Assembly: GCA_947630925.1 (NCBI GenBank)
Contig: CANRJM010000003.1
Coordinates: 1-64,000, forward strand
Length of the DNA stretch: 64,000 bases
DNA from: an uncultured Lachnospiraceae bacterium
Lineage (GTDB): Bacteria; Bacillota; Clostridia; Lachnospirales; Lachnospiraceae
Direction of reading: 5' to 3'
The position numbers were made by a program, and so were the translations under genes. The notes beneath the pieces were generated by a model that was not told the origin of the DNA, ran no database searches, and saw only the letters and a list, made by a program, of their open reading frames with translations. Numbering within the stretch: position 1 is the stretch's first letter; each line of letters begins with the position of its first letter. This document shows positions 15,943 through 27,529 of this stretch, in pieces.

Positions 15943-16014
15943 CTGGGCTACAAGGATTCGAACCTTGAAATGCTGGAGTCAGAGTCCAGTGCCTTACCAT
16001 TTGGCGATAGCCCA
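15943..16014 (-). tRNA. tRNA-Gln (CUG anticodon), copy 2
   Basis: Reverse complement folds as a cloverleaf: acceptor TGGGCTA/TAGCCCA with discriminator G, D stem GCC/GGC, anticodon stem CTGGA/TCCAG with loop CTCTGAC giving anticodon CTG, and T stem CAAGG/CCTTG with TTCGAAT. The 3' CCA is not encoded. The tRNA itself is identical to the copy 32 bases upstream. Confidence 0.95.
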
Positions 16015-16046
16015 TCAAATATCATAAAGCATTTCTTTTTTGTAAA

Positions 16047-16118
16047 CTGGGCTACAAGGATTCGAACCTTGAAATGCTGGAGTCAGAGTCCAGTGCCTTA
16101 CCATTTGGCGATAGCCCA
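16047..16118 (-). tRNA. tRNA-Gln (CUG anticodon), copy 1
   Basis: Same 72-base cloverleaf as the neighbouring copy, anticodon CTG, no encoded CCA. It is the promoter-proximal copy of a two-gene transcript. Between the promoter and this tRNA a short GCTTG/CAAGC leader hairpin is present. Confidence 0.95.
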
Positions 16119-16152
16119 ATATGAGCGCTTGTTTCTTCGCAAGCACGCGTAT

Positions 16153-19757: not shown

Positions 19758-19804
19758 GATGAAAGTTGTACATATTTTAAATAGAATGGATGGGAGTTGA
19801 TTTT

Positions 19805-21124
19805 TTGGACGCAAGCGACGTCTCGCAGGTCATTATATTATTAATTTTGTTAGTTCTTTCCGCATTTTTCTCCTCTGCGGAAACTTGCCTGACTACAGTA
19901 AACAAAATGCGAATGAAATCAATGGCGGATGAAAACAGGAAGAATGCCAAACTGGTTCTGAAACTGACTGAAAATCCAACAAAACTGCTAAGCGCTATTT
20001 TAATTGGAAATAACATTATGAACCTGTCTGCTTCTTCTCTTACCACTTCGTTTGCCATTCGTCTGGCAAATAATTTAGGATATTCCCAATTTGTCAGCGC
20101 AATCACCGGGCTTGCTACCGGTCTTCTGACTATATTGGTACTGATTTTCGGGGAGATTGTCCCCAAGTCCTTTGCAACCATGGCGGCAGAAAGACTATCG
20201 CTGCTCTACGCTAAGCCGGTTTACCTGTTTGTTACGCTTATGACGCCATTTTGTTTCATTATGAATAAAATTTCTTCCGGTATCCTTTTCCTTTTACGGA
20301 TTGATACAAAAAAAGTGCCTGCCATTACAGAAAATGAACTGCGAACCATTGTAGACGTCAGTCATGAAGAGGGTGTCATTGAAAGCGAAGAACGGCAGAT
20401 GATTACCAATGTTGTTGATTTTGGCGATTCCTTAGCAAAAGATATCATGGTTCCGAAAATGGATGTCACATTTGTGAATGTGAATTTATCCTATAATGAA
20501 CTGATGGAATGCTACTCGGTTGATAAATTTACCAGACTGCCTGTCTATGATGACAGCCGTGATAATGTAGTCGGTATCATCAACCTAAAAGATTTATTTT
20601 TCTATCAGGGCTCGAAACGGGATTTTTCTATTGCTGAAATTATGCGGGAGCCATATTTTACTTATGAATACAAGAAAATCTCTGAATTGTTTTTTGAAAT
20701 GAAAAAGGAATCCATCCCTATGGCAATCGTACTGGACGAATATGGTTCTACTGCGGGCATGCTTACTTTAGAGGATCTCATTGAAGAAATCGTCGGGGAT
20801 ATCCGTGATGAATACAATGACAATGAAGAAGATGAAATCACAAAAATAGATGAGGAAACTTATATTCTCCTTGGCGTAGCCAAGTTAGCGGATATTGATG
20901 AAATATTAGGCATTACGATTGAATCAGAAGATTATGATTCCATTGCCGGTCACGTCATAAAGCTTCTGGATCATTTTCCGGAAGCCGGAGAAACGGTCAG
21001 CGACAGTTTTGCAGAATATACGGTATTGGAAGCCGAAAAGAACCGGATTGATAAGGTTCAGTTGCATCTTCTTCCGGCACGGGAAGAAATGGAGGAAGAG
21101 GACGAAGCAGAAGAGACGCTATAG
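19805..21124 (+). CDS. CNNM/HlyC-CorC family membrane protein with CBS pair
   Basis: About 439 aa. An N-terminal DUF21 membrane domain with four helices (ILLILLVLSAFFSSAET, AILIGNNIMN, GEIVPKSFA) is followed by a CBS pair (IMVPKMDVTFV, RLPVYDD, GIINLKDL, GSTAGMLTLEDLIEEIVGDI) and a C-terminal CorC_HlyC domain. Relatives are implicated in magnesium or cobalt efflux. The ATG at 19790 lacks a ribosome binding site, whereas TTG at 19805 has GGGAG 8 bases upstream, so TTG is chosen. It is monocistronic with its own promoter and terminator. Confidence 0.88.
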   Translation: MDASDVSQVIILLILLVLSAFFSSAETCLTTVNKMRMKSMADENRKNAKLVLKLTENPTKLLSAILIGNNIMNLSASSLTTSFAIRLANNLGYSQFVSAITGLATGLLTILVLIFGEIVPKSFATMAAERLSLLYAKPVYLFVTLMTPFCFIMNKISSGILFLLRIDTKKVPAITENELRTIVDVSHEEGVIESEERQMITNVVDFGDSLAKDIMVPKMDVTFVNVNLSYNELMECYSVDKFTRLPVYDDSRDNVVGIINLKDLFFYQGSKRDFSIAEIMREPYFTYEYKKISELFFEMKKESIPMAIVLDEYGSTAGMLTLEDLIEEIVGDIRDEYNDNEEDEITKIDEETYILLGVAKLADIDEILGITIESEDYDSIAGHVIKLLDHFPEAGETVSDSFAEYTVLEAEKNRIDKVQLHLLPAREEMEEEDEAEETL

Positions 21125-21128
21125 AATC

Positions 21129-21161
21129 AAAAGAGGAATGCATATGCAGTCCTCTTTTTTT
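21129..21161. terminator. Bidirectional terminator after CNNM-type gene
   Basis: AAAAGAGGA pairs with TCCTCTTTT around a TGCATATGCA core, followed by a T-run on the plus strand. It sits between convergent genes and touches the stop of the beta-helix gene. Confidence 0.85.
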
Positions 21162-23013
21162 AACTGACATCATTCGGTTTACAGTCCAGAAAATAGCATT
21201 TTACTACTTTCTGTCCCAGATTCCTGTCAATAGCGCCGCCGGTATAGTCGGCAATACACCGCCGGAACCGGCATTCTTCTATCGTTCCCCTGTTTCCATA
21301 CATCAGTATGCCCGCACCGTTCTTGCTGCGGCAGTTTACAAAAGTACATTTTCGGATATTGCCATCCTGAGAATAAATTGCCCCATCCTGGCAGAAATTA
21401 AAAATGCATCCTGTTATCTCCGGCGCATAGGCATCATAAACCGCCCTTCCCTTAACCATATTGCGGAAAACAGACTGTTCTGCAGTCAACCGGCAGCCGG
21501 TCGCATATATCCCGCTTGCTTTTCCCATGCCATTCAATTCACTTTGATTGATGCTGCACTTTTTACTGTGTTCTAAAATAATCATATCTTCCTTTTGCAT
21601 GTGATTGCAGATCATCTTCACATGATGTAAGGTCAGGCTCCCCCTGCAGCGTATCGGATAATTCAAATAGACATTGGCATCTTCTATCAGCAGGCGCCCC
21701 TGCGCTTCAATCAGAACCGGGCAGTCTACTATGGTTGACACCATGATTCGGTAATCACCCGTTATCTGAAAAGTCCCCATCTTGGCAAGATATTGTATCG
21801 TTTCTGCTCCCTCCGGACAGCATTTCTTATATTGAAGCTGGTTGACATTTGCCCGCACAAAACCGTTGTAAAAGATTGCTGCTCCATATTCTGCCACATA
21901 GCATTCCTCAAATTCACAGTTCGTAATACGATTCCCTTCTACCGCATAAATTGCGCCTCCGCGCTTTGCCTCGCATCTATAAAATTTACAGCCCCGGACA
22001 CTTCCCTGCGGGGTGCGTATCATAATCGCCCCGCCATCTTCCGGAGAATAACAATCTGCAAATACCGTATCTTCTACCTGAATCGCGTTTCCCCAAAACC
22101 GAAGAGCCGCCCCCCTCGTCGTATGATAAATATAACTTTTTGAAATCTGCAGTTCTCCTGCTTCCGCACGAACCAACATCCCAAAATTCCTACAATCCAT
22201 CTCGCTATTCCGAATCAAAACACGGCTATGTACAGATTTTATATTAATGCACGCCCTATGCGCATCGCTTTTTCGAATCAGCTTACTGTCTTCCACAATC
22301 AGTTCCCCGCCGGCTAACAGAATGTTCCCAAAAACACGAACCTCTGCATGGTCAAAAATCAAACGCATCCCTTGCGTCAATACCAGATCCTGCTTAATCT
22401 GACAGCGTTCCACAATCCGAACCTCTTTTTCCTCTTCCAGCATTTTCTGCGTACATTCTAACGTTTCCCAAAGCTGCATAATATAATATTTCATATCCAC
22501 CGGAGACAGTTCCATATCGTTTAGATGCATGCGATGTAAAATTTCCCGGCATCGGGTAACGTCCTCTTCATTAGCGCCCAAAACAAATTCCCGCAAAAGG
22601 GACAGCTTTTCCGCAGAAATCTTTAAGATTCCGCCAAACCGCTCCACCGATTCCCATTCCCTGTCAGGAATCCCTGAATGTTTCAGGCTGACGTTCATCA
22701 TATCTAACAGCAGTAAATATTTTTCCCGTTCTGATTGAAAGGCATGGAGCAAATATTCCACTACGGTCTCTTTTTCCTTGGAATACCGCAATACTTTTGC
22801 CATATCATCTGACTCCAAATGAAACCCCGCCAACAATAACCGTTCCAGTTCAAAGTTATTGAGCGGGCTGGATAGGCAGTCCAATTCTGCCTGCATAAAA
22901 ATAGCAGAGCCGTATATAATCTTATATTTATATGGTTTGGTATAAAGCGGATGCTTCGGCGTCATCCATAACTTCTTTTTCTGATTAAATTTAGTAAGAT
23001 TATCGATTATCAT
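21160..23013 (-). CDS. Long cytoplasmic beta-helix repeat protein
   Basis: About 617 aa, no signal peptide. The first 190 residues are mostly helical and contain KHPLYTKPYKYKIIYGSAIF, a block also found in the upstream paralogue. From about residue 200 to the end there are repeated short strands with motifs such as C-x-F-x-x-C and GGAI (EDGGAIMI, KRGGAIYA, AEYGAAIFY, KNGAGILMY, YTGGAID), typical of a right-handed parallel beta-helix. The ATG at 23013 follows AGAGGA located at the end of the upstream gene, whose TAA is 4 bases away, so they are coupled. I do not know a function; enzymatic residues of pectate lyases are not visible. Confidence 0.85.
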   Translation of the reverse strand: MIIDNLTKFNQKKKLWMTPKHPLYTKPYKYKIIYGSAIFMQAELDCLSSPLNNFELERLLLAGFHLESDDMAKVLRYSKEKETVVEYLLHAFQSEREKYLLLLDMMNVSLKHSGIPDREWESVERFGGILKISAEKLSLLREFVLGANEEDVTRCREILHRMHLNDMELSPVDMKYYIMQLWETLECTQKMLEEEKEVRIVERCQIKQDLVLTQGMRLIFDHAEVRVFGNILLAGGELIVEDSKLIRKSDAHRACINIKSVHSRVLIRNSEMDCRNFGMLVRAEAGELQISKSYIYHTTRGAALRFWGNAIQVEDTVFADCYSPEDGGAIMIRTPQGSVRGCKFYRCEAKRGGAIYAVEGNRITNCEFEECYVAEYGAAIFYNGFVRANVNQLQYKKCCPEGAETIQYLAKMGTFQITGDYRIMVSTIVDCPVLIEAQGRLLIEDANVYLNYPIRCRGSLTLHHVKMICNHMQKEDMIILEHSKKCSINQSELNGMGKASGIYATGCRLTAEQSVFRNMVKGRAVYDAYAPEITGCIFNFCQDGAIYSQDGNIRKCTFVNCRSKNGAGILMYGNRGTIEECRFRRCIADYTGGAIDRNLGQKVVKCYFLDCKPNDVS

Positions 23014-23017
23014 TCCA

Positions 23018-24259
23018 TTAATCCTCTTTTTTACCTGCATTAAAAATCGCGCTTTCTTTCGGCTCACACTGATAGAGCACGGATTTTTTCACGAACTGCC
23101 CCAGTTTTTCATATTTAAAATATACTGCAGCCCCTAAATACCGTACTGTGCAATTCCGAAAAGAACATGCTTCAATGATTACATTGTCAATCGACTCCGA
23201 GTAAACAGCGCCGCCATATTCTGCAGTCGCCTGATAAAAATCACAGTTTGAAATATGAATCTGTGATGCGCCAAAAACAGCAAGAAACCCATTCTCCCCA
23301 TTGATAAAACTGCTTCGGTTAATCTGCGCATATCTTCCATCAAACACGAGCATTCGTTTTCCTCTGGAGTGGCTAAACTCACTTTCCTCAATCAACAGCC
23401 GGCCTGCTTTCTGCTGTAACAAGCCGCATTGCATATGACAGTCTATCAGGGCATTTTCTATTTTTACTACAGCCGCGTCCTGGATTGTCAGAAAATAATC
23501 TTCTTCACAGGCAGTCACATCCCATCTGGTATTACAAATCCGGATTCTTCCGCCATTAATCTGAACAGACCCCCGCATTGTGATATCTGCGCCATCAATC
23601 AGCAGAGAACCGCCGCGCTCTACATAAATATTCCCCGTAATCTCAGTCGGTTTATCCAGTATCAGAGTTTTCCCCGCCTCTACATGGATATCCTGAAAGA
23701 TATCCCGGTCGGTAAACTCTCTATAAAAATACTGCAGTATACGATAGGGAATCTCATAGCCGGCTTCCTGAAACTGATGATAACACTTTCTCGCCCCTTC
23801 TAAATCCTTTTTTGAGGCCGCCTCCTGAAAGTCTTGAAAAAAACGGATTTCTGCAGGCGTCATATGAAAGATCTGCTGATAGTTTTCAATGACCTTGCCG
23901 CAATAATCCAATGACCAGACTGCCCCGCCGTACAACTGATATAAATCCGCCAAAAAACAATACTGCACTTCTTTGGTCTTTAATATCTTCATGCATTCCG
24001 TCAAGCGGAATTCAAAATAATTGTTAATATCCGTAATGATTTTATCCCTCTGCTCTTTGGGCAAAGAAATACATTCCAGAAAAAAGTCATATCTGTCTTT
24101 TAACTCTGTAATGGCTTTCATATTCCCAATTGCCAGTATTCCTACGCCAAAGGAATATAAATATCGAAAGGACAGACTTTTTGAATAGAAAGGATGATTC
24201 ACTCTTTCTAACTCATTCCGCCTGCTTTTTAAATATTCCAGAACATCCATTTCCGCCAT
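23018..24259 (-). CDS. Short cytoplasmic beta-helix repeat protein, paralogue
   Basis: 413 aa, no signal peptide. The N-terminal 185 residues are helical and include NHPFYSKSLSFRYLYSFGVG, aligning with the block in the downstream paralogue. Residues 195-400 form a shorter beta-helix (ITGNIYVERGGSLLIDGADI, AEYGGAVYSE, RYLGAAVYF). AAAGGAATCTGAAT precedes the ATG and a good promoter lies 40-70 bases upstream, so the two beta-helix genes can be expressed without the MinD-like ATPase. The function is unknown. Confidence 0.85.
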   Translation of the reverse strand: MAEMDVLEYLKSRRNELERVNHPFYSKSLSFRYLYSFGVGILAIGNMKAITELKDRYDFFLECISLPKEQRDKIITDINNYFEFRLTECMKILKTKEVQYCFLADLYQLYGGAVWSLDYCGKVIENYQQIFHMTPAEIRFFQDFQEAASKKDLEGARKCYHQFQEAGYEIPYRILQYFYREFTDRDIFQDIHVEAGKTLILDKPTEITGNIYVERGGSLLIDGADITMRGSVQINGGRIRICNTRWDVTACEEDYFLTIQDAAVVKIENALIDCHMQCGLLQQKAGRLLIEESEFSHSRGKRMLVFDGRYAQINRSSFINGENGFLAVFGASQIHISNCDFYQATAEYGGAVYSESIDNVIIEACSFRNCTVRYLGAAVYFKYEKLGQFVKKSVLYQCEPKESAIFNAGKKED

Positions 24260-24297
24260 ATTCAGATTCCTTTCTCCAACGATTCTATCCTTTTTTT

Positions 24298-24326
24298 ATT
24301 ATACTCCCTTCTATATCCCTGTGCAA
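24298..24326 (-). promoter_or_regulatory. Sigma-A promoter of the beta-helix gene pair
   Basis: Minus strand: TTGCAC at 24321-24326, 17-base spacer, perfect TATAAT at 24298-24303, in the 100-base gap after the MinD-like gene. Confidence 0.7.
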
Positions 24327-24359
24327 GCAAAGAAATCCTTCCTTTGGCAAAAGGCGCCC

Positions 24360-25181
24360 TTAGCCCCGTTTCTCTTTCCGTTTCTTTAAAATATTTTTCC
24401 GTATCATCTTACCGGCGCGCTTTACAAACCGGATAAAATATTCATTGTCCAAATCAGAAGGTTTATAATAATTGCGATTTAAGAACTGCAACAGATGTCC
24501 CTGCAGCATGGAATCCTGTAATTCCATATTGTAGGGAATAATGCCGATCTTATCCTTTGGAATATGAAATTCCCTGCATATGCGGGACACATCCCAAAGC
24601 GCCTCGGTTTTATAATTTCCAATTAAATATACTGCTTTTTGCTGAATAGAAGAATACCGGGTAAAATACTCCCTTAGATGAACCGGATCCTGGTCCAGAT
24701 TAACTACCACCAACTCTGCTTCGGATAGTATAACATTAGAACTAAGATTTTGATTCGTTTCCGTATCAATATAGATATAATCTGAAATGCCAGACAGTGC
24801 AGAAAACAATTTTTCCTGTACCAGATTAAATTCATAGTTAAATACTTCTTTGTTGACAATTCTTCCCTGCGGAAGATAATACATACCGGAAAACAACAAT
24901 GGAATGGTTGCATGATGTACCAGCCTGTCTCCCTGTTCTCCCGAATACAAACGCTTTAGCACATATTCAATCCCATAATGGCTATAATATTCTCCCTGTT
25001 CCCGAAGTACCTCCATCTTCTCCGGCATCAATAAAATATCCCCAATTCCATGGACACTATAATGATTCTCTAATAATATGATCTTCCCATGCCCACTAAG
25101 CGAGGTCATGGCAGAAACACATGCCAAATTAGTCGTGACGCCTGCCGCACCTCTTACATGACTCCAAAATGCTATTTTCAT
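24360..25181 (-). CDS. MinD/ParA-like protein with deviant P-loop lacking lysines
   Basis: 273 aa. The start MKIAFWSHVRGAAGVTTNLA has the place and shape of the MinD/ParA Walker A, but both lysines are replaced (K to R and K to V). The Walker-A'-like strand YIYIDTETNQN and VVVNLDQDP follow, as in this superfamily. Clostridial pilus-type ATPases with an HGxxGTTSN loop are the nearest pattern I recall. The C-terminus is very basic (KMIRKNILKKRKEKRG), which could bind membrane or nucleic acid. GGAGG is 4 bases before the ATG. A role in positioning or assembling the neighbouring beta-helix proteins is a guess. Confidence 0.75.
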   Translation of the reverse strand: MKIAFWSHVRGAAGVTTNLACVSAMTSLSGHGKIILLENHYSVHGIGDILLMPEKMEVLREQGEYYSHYGIEYVLKRLYSGEQGDRLVHHATIPLLFSGMYYLPQGRIVNKEVFNYEFNLVQEKLFSALSGISDYIYIDTETNQNLSSNVILSEAELVVVNLDQDPVHLREYFTRYSSIQQKAVYLIGNYKTEALWDVSRICREFHIPKDKIGIIPYNMELQDSMLQGHLLQFLNRNYYKPSDLDNEYFIRFVKRAGKMIRKNILKKRKEKRG

Positions 25182-25391
25182 TCATCCTCCATCACATGCA
25201 AGTCCTCCCCCTTCCTTTGCATGCTCTTCTTCTGTCGTATGTTCTTTCCGGGCAGCGCAAACACACCGGATTGACAGACTGCCCAAAAAAGTTGCCTCTA
25301 AGTAATTTCCTATTAAAAATACTGTAATATATCCTACTAAGATTCGTAAAGCATTTTTTTCATCTTTTCTTTTTTTCTCCCTTTTTGCCAA
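25182..25391 (-). CDS. Possible small single-pass membrane protein
   Basis: 69 aa with one hydrophobic stretch (ILVGYITVFLIGNYLEATFL) between a Lys/Arg-rich N-terminus and a polar tail. A TTG start at 25391 has AAAGG five bases upstream, and the TGA directly abuts the ATG of the MinD-like gene, which supports a real upstream gene in that operon. The unusual Cys/Glu/Gly-rich tail is a reason for doubt. No family recognised. Confidence 0.45.
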   Translation of the reverse strand: MAKREKKRKDEKNALRILVGYITVFLIGNYLEATFLGSLSIRCVCAARKEHTTEEEHAKEGGGLACDGG

Positions 25392-25420
25392 ATTACCTTT
25401 CTAAATTTTGTGAAATAAAT

Positions 25421-25452
25421 AAAAAAACACCCTGATTAACAGGATGTTTTTT
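25421..25452. terminator. Bidirectional terminator after the FliB-like gene
   Basis: A-run, stem CACCCTG/CAGGATG with one wobble and a TTAA-type loop, then T-run. On the minus strand it lies about 110 bases past the FliB-like stop. Bases 25453-25560 hold nothing else recognisable. Confidence 0.85.
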
Positions 25453-25560
25453 CATATATGCCATAATAAAAATTACCCCGGCAAAGCCCGCAAGAATCCC
25501 CTAAAAACAGACAGAAGCCGCCTCATTCTATTTGGTTCCTGCGCCTTCCACAAAACCACT

Positions 25561-26556
25561 CTATTGCAGAAAACACTCCCACATATCTTCCCGTGAAAAA
25601 AGCGTGTCTGCCATATGGTGAAAATCCGCCGATGCTTTTCTGCTGTGTACGCAAAAACGATATGTCATTTGTATTGCCTCACACCAATCAGAAGCGGAAA
25701 GCGAACCCGTCATGGCATATCGGCAGAAAGCAAGCAGCCGTATCAGTACCAGTTCTGCCTTTATGTGCACATAGCTTACTTTACCGCCTTTTAAAGCTGC
25801 CTCCGCCGTACAACCCACCAATCGGTATTCCCTATAATTATGTTGAATCTTCTTCCACATTGCCTGCGACTTTGCCACAAATGCATCGATTTGCTCCCGC
25901 CGCCTTTCTTCCGGTACATCCTGCATAAAGATTTGCAATTCCTTCTGCAGATTTGTTCCCTCCTGGTACGATACGATCATCCGAAGCAGCTCATCTGCTA
26001 TTACCTCAAAACCGGAAAGCAAAAAGCTGCCGCTCATCAAATTCTCCTTCGTCTGACAAAAGCTTTCCCCATGCGAAAAACATGGAGCATTTCCTGTCAG
26101 CCGGCACAAAAGCTCCTGTAAATCAATCTGTTCCCCTCTCCCGTTCTCATCGGAACAAATCCATGTTACCGTATCGTTTACCAGATATTCCGATACTACC
26201 GGACAAGAGGCCGCCATAGACAGATACAATGCTCCCTGTATCATGTAAAAAAGGCGTGGATATTTTCTGCAGGTATTACAAAGCGTTTCCTCCGCCGCAT
26301 TTTTTTGGATCCTGCAAAGACCATCTTCCTCCAGCATGGCGCATCTGCCATCCATGTTATTTTTAAAATAGTATCCATTTTCCTTCCGCTGTATATTCGA
26401 CAGAATATCTAAGCGCAGCCAGTCAGGCGACAGGTTCGAAAAGCGTCTGTAATCCTCGCTGCTGACAAAAATACTCCAACCGGCGCAGCAGGTAGACGGA
26501 CAATCTCCTGCAAGGCAGGAAAACTTTTGATACAAACTGATTGCATAGTATTCCAT
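25561..26556 (-). CDS. fliB: Flagellin lysine-N-methylase family protein (FliB-like)
   Basis: 331 aa. The Cys pattern FSCLAGDCPSTCCAGWSI at the N-terminus, then GRCAMLEEDGLCRI and TLCNTCRKYPRLF, is the hallmark of FliB-type proteins that methylate flagellin lysines, probably with an Fe-S or zinc site. No flagellar gene is present in this window, so the substrate may be elsewhere in the genome or may not be flagellin. The ATG at 26556 overlaps the TGA of the small upstream gene (TGATG), suggesting coupling. Confidence 0.85.
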   Translation of the reverse strand: MEYYAISLYQKFSCLAGDCPSTCCAGWSIFVSSEDYRRFSNLSPDWLRLDILSNIQRKENGYYFKNNMDGRCAMLEEDGLCRIQKNAAEETLCNTCRKYPRLFYMIQGALYLSMAASCPVVSEYLVNDTVTWICSDENGRGEQIDLQELLCRLTGNAPCFSHGESFCQTKENLMSGSFLLSGFEVIADELLRMIVSYQEGTNLQKELQIFMQDVPEERRREQIDAFVAKSQAMWKKIQHNYREYRLVGCTAEAALKGGKVSYVHIKAELVLIRLLAFCRYAMTGSLSASDWCEAIQMTYRFCVHSRKASADFHHMADTLFSREDMWECFLQ

Positions 26557-26765
26557 CAAAACATCAAGTCCGATTTCCGTTTTAACAGATGGGCTCCCTT
26601 TGCAATGACTGCAGTTCCAAAAGCAATACCAGATGCAATCATCAAAATTCCCATCACAACATTAAAAGCGCCTACCGATTTCATTGTCTTATAAACTCTC
26701 TCCAAAATAACCTCTTTTCTGCAACTGTTTTTCCGATCCATGATCGAGTCTAACAGATTTGCCAA
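26556..26765 (-). CDS. Small membrane protein coupled to FliB-like gene
   Basis: Up to 69 aa, with one hydrophobic segment of about 22 residues (AFNVVMGILMIASGIAFGTAVI) and a basic C-terminus. TTG at 26765 is the outer start; an inner ATG at 26738 (MDRKNSC) is also possible, and neither has a strong ribosome binding site. It overlaps the FliB-like start by the TGATG junction. Function unknown. Confidence 0.5.
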   Translation of the reverse strand: MANLLDSIMDRKNSCRKEVILERVYKTMKSVGAFNVVMGILMIASGIAFGTAVIAKGAHLLKRKSDLMF

Positions 26766-26842: not shown

Positions 26843-27529
26843 TTATCCACACGATTTTACGCCATATTCTGCGTAATATGCATCAATGGCTTTCTTTAAT
26901 GCATCATCAATCAGAATCTTCCCTCCGCATTCTTTATTGTACAGGCATTCTATGACATCCTCCATGCTGACAATGGCATTTGCAGGAAATCCATATTTCT
27001 CCTCAATTTCGTCCAAAGCGCTCGCATGGGACGTCAGGCCGCGCTCCATCCGGTTTAAGGAAACCATCAGGCCAATAATTTTCACTTCTCCCTGCGCCTT
27101 GATAATTGGAAAAGTCTCTTCAATGGATTTTCCGGACGTCGTCACATCTTCTATGATAACCACCCGGTCCCCATCCTTGAGTTTACTGCCTAAAAGAATC
27201 CCTGTATCTCCATGATCCTTTACTTCCTTCCGGTTGGAACAATACCTGATCTCTTTTCCATACAGCTCGCTAAAGGCAATCGCTGTCGCAACCCCAAGAG
27301 GAATCCCCTTATACGCCGGTCCAAATAATACATCAAAATCGCTGCCGTATTTCCCGTAAATCGCTTTTGCATAATACTGCCCCAGTTTACGAAGCTGCGA
27401 ACCGGTTACATAGGCGCCCGCATTCATAAAAAAAGGAGATTTTCTTCCACTTTTCAATGTAAAATCACCAAATTTCAATACGTCGCTCTCCACCATAAAT
27501 TCAATAAATTCTTTTTTATATTGCTCCAT
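26843..27529 (-). CDS. pyrE: Orotate phosphoribosyltransferase
   Basis: 228 aa. Converts orotate and PRPP to OMP. The PRPP motif VVIIEDVTTSGKS is clear, with FGPAYKGIPLG and SGRKSPFFMN completing the site. GAAGGAGGG precedes the ATG. It has its own promoter and is separated from pyrD by an oppositely transcribed gene, so it is not in one transcript with the other pyr genes. Confidence 0.95.
   Translation of the reverse strand: MEQYKKEFIEFMVESDVLKFGDFTLKSGRKSPFFMNAGAYVTGSQLRKLGQYYAKAIYGKYGSDFDVLFGPAYKGIPLGVATAIAFSELYGKEIRYCSNRKEVKDHGDTGILLGSKLKDGDRVVIIEDVTTSGKSIEETFPIIKAQGEVKIIGLMVSLNRMERGLTSHASALDEIEEKYGFPANAIVSMEDVIECLYNKECGGKILIDDALKKAIDAYYAEYGVKSCG

Follow-up and report, generated by a model that had tools for sequence, protein, structure and literature searches.

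Why should a bacterial chromosome keep a MinD-like protein whose P-loop has no lysine directly in front of two paralogous beta-helix proteins? The question is raised by a locus of an uncultured Lachnospiraceae bacterium (assembly GCA_947630925.1), lying in the first 64,000 nucleotides of contig CANRJM010000003.1, a stretch hereafter called the window. A preliminary description, made from the sequence alone, had proposed that a small membrane protein, the MinD-like protein and the two beta-helix proteins (BH1 and BH2) form a single new assembly or positioning system. Our computational analysis, covering fold, homology, synteny, missing motor and pilin genes and purifying selection, points elsewhere: the MinD-like protein is probably a TadZ-like membrane landmark retained after the loss of a pilus and standing beside an independent beta-helix pair, and the trio of genes would be the remnant of a larger locus.

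In a Foldseek search of the PDB, the MinD-like protein as modelled by AlphaFold (pLDDT 89.8) matches MinD, ParA/Soj and FlhG structures (best E 8e-10) and, by this model, is of the MinD/ParA fold, as had been supposed. No Pfam (E up to 1) or NCBIfam model of the MinD/ParA fold matched the window protein, AAA_31 was weakly matched by 6 of 16 aligned members (best E 0.0019), and when the profiles of the MinD-like protein and of BH1, the two proteins for which structure models were made, were run against PDB sequences, the matches were at chance level only. The P-loop reads RGAAGVTT, which confirms the reported lack of lysines. The corresponding column is devoid of lysine in all 54 aligned members of the family, so that the absence is a family trait; decay of the window copy was rejected on the same count. 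In four members (G018, G028, G159 and G247), a GKS or GKT occurs about three residues before the P-loop column. A receiver domain is absent, the 273-aa model opening straight on the P-loop strand.

Relatives of the MinD-like protein are found in 60 of the 397 genomes of a family-wide sample, and gene context was read for 20 of these matches, plus a few loci fetched earlier. A Tad-type (CpaF-type) ATPase adjoins the MinD-like gene in 16 of the 20 fetched loci of other genera; two others (G148 and G159) have a divergent short ATPase two genes away, and G298 and G320 have no ATPase. The family profile of 11 of the ATPases matches CpaF structures (E 3e-14). The usual gene order is a small protein, the MinD-like protein, the ATPase, a large membrane protein and pilin-like proteins; in two loci that were examined, the pilin-like proteins have a single hydrophobic segment, located at the N-terminus. 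At the platform position, where TadB and TadC are expected, stands a single membrane protein of ~540-680 aa, with 6-7 hydrophobic segments in the three examined; an internal duplication of this protein is not convincing (hhalign E 0.028 over 58 columns, 0.63 for a shuffled-column control). The pyrE and/or CNNM genes, which flank the trio in the window, fall inside 11 of the 20 fetched loci. In gut Lachnospiraceae, a Tad-like pilus locus of patchy occurrence is found repeatedly at this one chromosomal site. Two MinD-like genes are present in five of the 20 fetched loci (L200, L205, L206, L207 and L210), the upstream copies forming their own group in the tree described below (93/87). Several Tad-like loci (L091, L163, L191, L197, L198 and L204) also encode a protein of ~1000-1070 aa, whose copy in G036 matches DUF5704, a family on which we found no literature.

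The connection between this pilus locus and the beta-helix pair is made by two genomes, G150 and G217, which carry the Tad-like locus and BH1-BH2 together, with pyrE in both, ABC-F in G150, and CNNM and ABC-F in G217; in G150 two extra proteins separate the last pilin-like gene from BH1. Because these genomes carry the pilus locus with the pair behind it, the window trio looks like a pilus locus minus its motor, membrane and pilin genes. The phylogeny was reconstructed for 54 MinD-like proteins with a midpoint root, including 20 of the 26 found in the source genus (a sample of 28 genomes; the genus includes Butyribacter intestini) and that of G028, which was matched by a single-protein search and not by the profile. 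A set of 21 proteins, hereafter BH-type (20 from the genus plus G336), groups with G298 at a support of 99/96, and this group branches among proteins of Tad loci.

The window locus itself contains no Tad motor and no pilin. Across the genus, the absence of pilus genes was assessed with motor and pilin profiles: the motor profile gave one full strong match in the 28 genomes (G019, in which a second locus includes a MinD-like gene of its own) and otherwise weak matches or none, with a partial piece in G008, and the pilin profile matched G019 only (1 of 28 genomes, and none of the 17 of best quality). The partial piece of G008 (L212 1516-2100) covers a short part of a Tad-like ATPase; it lies apart from the trio and may be what is left of the lost machine. 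In the 11 genomes checked, the weak motor-profile match corresponds to canonical TadA, and a canonical Tad locus is found on contig C10 of the source genome (L130 3077-11667). This locus encodes TadA and a TadZ that has a relative of solved structure in 3fkq (E 6.6e-14); genes that look by eye like those of TadB/TadC, a peptidase and pilins are also present. All 20 genomes selected for a search of canonical TadA gave a match (best E at or below 1e-109), including G298, G320 and G336. Canonical tadA is broken, at the identical place, into two overlapping frames in three related genomes (G014, G002 and G018; L235-L237), and in G021 and G001 its halves lie on different contigs, near genes that look recombinase-like by eye (L238, L239, L242 and L243); other genus members have an intact canonical tadA.

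The trio is well conserved within the genus. The MinD-like gene is present in 26 of the 28 genomes, the missing ones being G017 (79% complete) and G022 (60%), and BH1 and BH2 in 27, with G022 again missing. The preliminary description had called for a conserved neighbour set to be looked for, and one exists: the MinD-like gene lies immediately upstream of BH1 in 24 of 26 genomes, among which G019 and G027 have a contig end within BH1. The two other genomes, sisters in the tree of MinD-like proteins, retain the pair and have the MinD-like gene on a separate contig, beside other genes in G014 and near a contig end in G001. Genome-collection records for 29 loci, one of which is the contig of G336, list Butyribacter intestini and many uncultured Lachnospiraceae. 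For the three genes (seven sequences per gene), dN/dS ranges from 0.037 to 0.157 in the 22 of 63 pairs for which it could be computed; the MinD-like gene, BH1 and BH2 are real genes under purifying selection.

The MinD-like protein of the window ends in a helix with a hydrophobic moment of 0.79, a value attained by 0.4% of shuffled sequences. The net charge of this C-terminal stretch averages +5.5 in the 21 BH-type proteins vs +0.4 in 30 proteins of Tad loci (Mann-Whitney p 3e-8, which is overstated since the sequences are related).

As for the two beta-helix proteins, their paralogy, initially noticed in an N-terminal block, extends well beyond it: hhalign aligns BH1 and BH2 over 397 columns, almost the whole length of BH1 (E 5e-31), and Pfam Beta_helix scores above cut-off in both. 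Above Pfam cut-offs, they match generic beta-helix models only; the weak match of Pfam TerB to their N-termini concerns 2 of 16 BH2 members (best E 0.031). In the model of BH1 (pLDDT 90.3), a helical domain precedes a right-handed beta-helix, and the BH1 fold has no match below E 0.001 in the PDB or in a viral library, the hits being mostly generic beta-helices. A hydropathy scan found no N-terminal signal-like segment in either protein, in agreement with the preliminary description, and PHROGs gave no family at E 0.01 for the MinD-like protein, BH1 or BH2; from the lack of a signal-like segment and of a PHROGs match, we infer that BH1 and BH2 are cytoplasmic. In the family sample, BH1 is found in 9 of 397 genomes (10 matches; that of G261, partial at E 8e-9, was dropped), and BH1 and BH2 are adjacent in all seven other genera (G150, G182, G202, G217, G222, G336 and G380). 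A class-wide search of 391 genomes matched four, three of them through partial matches inside long frames that were excluded, leaving a full BH1 match in the source genome only. Since a profile search detected a MinD-like gene in three of the seven other genera that have the pair and none in the remaining four (of which G202 is 72% complete), BH1-BH2 is an independent two-gene unit, seen so far in Lachnospiraceae only. Genome G018 has two BH1-BH2 copies (contigs C139 and C90), one of which, at a guess, may be contamination.

The history that we propose begins with an ancestor in which a Tad-like (type IVc) pilus cluster would have lain between pyrE and the CNNM gene, with BH1-BH2 close behind. 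This cluster would have encoded a small protein, a TadZ-like MinD protein, a CpaF-type motor, a large membrane protein and pilin-like proteins. The genes for the motor, the membrane protein and the pilins would then have been lost in the lineage that gave rise to G336 and to the genus (including Butyribacter intestini), a loss that would have brought the MinD-like gene beside BH1; the MinD-like protein itself would have been retained. One report (PMC6668835) describes TadZ as a polarly localised recruiting hub with an atypical Walker A motif and low ATPase activity, and another (PMC13170226) models CpaE as six dimers surrounding CpaF and gives it an amphipathic helix at the C-terminus that likely binds the membrane. 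The MinD-like protein would most likely act in the manner of TadZ/CpaE: it would dimerise, hydrolyse little or no ATP, bind the membrane through its basic amphipathic C-terminal helix and mark a site for a client. BH1 and BH2 may be translationally coupled and would assemble in the cytoplasm via their helical domains, the beta-helix serving as a rigid rod or a binding surface. The client of the MinD-like protein might be BH1-BH2, the canonical Tad pilus or something else; a functional link between the MinD-like protein and the pair is possible.

Several observations weigh against this history. In the tree, the branch joining the 21 BH-type proteins without G298 is weak (50/72), some branches are long (e.g. 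G028, G224b and G217) and the root is a midpoint root, so the direction of change, loss and not gain, leans on parsimony and on the MinD-motor order common to many loci. The dS was not computable in 41 of the 63 pairs owing to synonymous saturation, and the computed values all exceed 1.4. Motor-less proteins outside the charge comparison vary in C-terminal charge (G298 +3, G320 -4, G028 -1), a Tad-locus protein (G295) reaches +8, and some BH-type proteins are weakly amphipathic (e.g. G003 and G018, with shuffle fractions of 0.25 and 0.31). The label "Tad-like" for the cluster of the relatives derives mainly from the ATPase; the protein at the platform position has no convincing Pfam match in the two examined and no TadB/TadC profile match. 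In G217, an unrelated extra gene separates the pilus block from the pair. Finally, the canonical Tad locus on another contig of the source genome includes a TadZ, and the MinD-like protein might serve that locus.

This last point can be developed into an alternative, unlikely in our view, in which the MinD-like protein serves, as an additional positioning protein, the canonical Tad pilus whose genes lie elsewhere in the genome. The canonical locus of the source genome and the presence of canonical TadA in every selected genome are in its favour. However, the canonical locus already has a TadZ, its tadA is split in several genus genomes, and canonical TadA is also present in four pair-bearing genomes without the MinD-like gene, which makes its presence non-discriminating. 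A possible, if rather doubtful, alternative is that the trio is one module, in which the MinD-like protein, once the pilus was lost, took on the task of placing a BH1-BH2 scaffold at a membrane site. Both parts are retained genus-wide, and both persist in G014 although the MinD-like gene lies elsewhere; G001 looks alike, but with its MinD-like gene near a contig end. The two parts are also adjacent in G336, which belongs to another genus, and BH-type proteins have a more basic C-terminal stretch. Co-occurrence, computed by merging the BH1 and MinD-like searches, taken as covering the same 397-genome sample, points the same way, with the MinD-like gene in 5 of 9 genomes with the pair vs 55 of 388 without it (Fisher p 0.005), and in 4 of 8 genera with the pair vs 50 of 326 without it (p 0.03), but this test ignores relatedness and the shared chromosomal position. 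Moreover, no MinD-like gene was detected in the four pair-bearing genera mentioned above, G298 and G320 have a MinD-like gene with neither an adjacent motor nor the pair, and BH1 is possibly under its own promoter. It is doubtful, too, that a gut Lachnospiraceae lineage which had lost its pilus re-used the landmark protein, carrying a strongly basic membrane helix and lacking an ATPase cycle, to place a cytoplasmic BH1-BH2 assembly; the locus would in that case encode a positioning system derived from a pilus that is no longer built.

Two further explanations concern the beta-helix proteins themselves, and we consider both very improbable. They could be parts of a phage tail or other surface or secreted beta-helix proteins such as adhesins or lyases, as their Cys-x-Phe-x-x-Cys and GGAI motifs and the weak resemblance of the BH1 fold to pectate lyases and phage tail proteins might suggest; yet no BH1 fold match falls below E 0.001 in the PDB or in the viral library, no PHROGs family was found, a signal-like segment is lacking and the chromosomal synteny is stable genus-wide. 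A phage origin was rejected as unlikely, given this synteny and the lack of a strong viral fold match and of a PHROGs family. Alternatively, the locus could encode a bactofilin-type cytoskeleton working with a ParA protein, like BacNOP-PadC-ParA of Myxococcus xanthus, a precedent described in PMC5703909, and a beta-helix does stand here beside a MinD/ParA fold. Against this, the ParA-like protein has no P-loop lysine, and BH1 and BH2 have no match to the Pfam bactofilin family (PF04519), on which ground their membership of that family was rejected. The bactofilin match of the source genome is on another contig (C14, 20515-20901).

The features of the locus are collected in Table 1.

Table 1. 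Features of the trio locus and of its surroundings, in window coordinates.
Feature	Coordinates	Strand	Remarks
CNNM/hemolysin-like transporter gene	19790..21124	+	marks shared chromosomal site
BH2	21160..23013	-	617 aa from probable ATG start; BH1 paralogue, longer beta-helix, Cys-x-Phe-x-x-Cys repeats
BH1	23018..24259	-	413 aa; helical N-terminal domain (~29-178), right-handed beta-helix (~186-396)
Promoter-like site (TATAAT) 5' of BH1	24298..24325	-	match to consensus only; site number not above shuffles
MinD/TadZ-like gene	24360..25181	-	273 aa; no P-loop lysine; basic amphipathic C-terminal helix (residues ~244-272)
69-aa ORF, TTG start	25182..25391	-	not conserved; probably no gene of the trio locus
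Terminator-like hairpin, 16 pairs, between the FliB-like and MinD-like genes	25419..25455	-	5 such sites in region vs shuffle mean 3.9
FliB-like gene (between pyrE and the MinD-like gene)	25561-26559	-	flagellin lysine-N-methylase FliB model, above cut-off
pyrE	26843..27529	-	marks shared chromosomal site

Some gene calls differ from those initially proposed. The small membrane protein of the preliminary description corresponds to the 69-aa open reading frame (ORF), which was rejected as a member of the locus for want of conservation, its best tblastn match across 64 fetched loci having an E-value of only 3.1. The start of BH2 is probably ATG 23013 and not GTG 23067, judging from the sequence context: it lies 4 bases past the BH1 stop and is preceded by AGAGG, and the first start is at this position in 5 of 16 aligned sequences. 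BH1 may have its own promoter, as had been claimed. The TATAAT is present, and an exact TATAAT falls within the best-scoring pair in 10 of 22 pre-BH1 gaps of relatives, a count made without shuffle control, including some near-copies and omitting L122, in which the gap is absent; the region as a whole, on the other hand, contains fewer promoter-like sites than its shuffles do (8 vs a mean of 12). A FliB-like relative adjoins the trio in many genus members. Elsewhere in the window, a tandem pair of tRNA-Gln genes with the identical anticodon CTG occupies 15943-16119 on the minus strand.

The preliminary description was thus mostly right in what it observed, and its interpretation is supported in part, as regards the conserved neighbour set, the MinD fold and the generic beta-helix matches, a single self-contained system being doubtful. 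Judged by the refuting outcomes that the preliminary description itself named, that reading largely fails: the MinD-like homologues match a pilus system, in the 16 of 20 loci reported above, and the pair and the MinD-like gene each occur apart from the other. What is new is that the MinD-like gene is akin to those of a Tad-like locus occupying the same chromosomal site, that it is retained where motor and pilin are missing, and that a beta-helix pair not described before exists; judging by titles and abstracts in the literature on Tad pili, TadZ, orphan MinD-like proteins and TerB/beta-helix proteins, we found no publication describing the trio. If the landmark was indeed kept after pilus loss, the locus would offer a natural experiment on the role of a TadZ-like landmark without its pilus, in a protein under purifying selection throughout a genus that almost always lacks the matching motor and pilin.

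Among known systems, TadZ/CpaE comes with the MinD/ParA fold, an atypical Walker A motif, relatives beside a CpaF-type motor and an amphipathic C-terminal helix, all shared by the MinD-like protein, which differs in having no receiver domain and in that 27 of the 28 genus genomes give no full match to the motor or to the pilin profile. The MinD, ParA and FlhG ATPases share its fold, whereas the lysine of the P-loop column is found in 0 of 54 members of the MinD-like family (GKS/GKT standing slightly earlier in 4). Bactofilins resemble BH1 and BH2 in their beta-helix and in the cytoplasmic location proposed here for the pair, but the latter are longer, have a helical N-terminal domain and do not match the Pfam bactofilin model. 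With other right-handed beta-helix proteins (Pfam Beta_helix, NosD and pectate-lyase-like), BH1 and BH2 share matches to generic models, and they stand apart from them as adjacent paralogues that combine a helical N-terminal domain with the lack of a signal-like segment.

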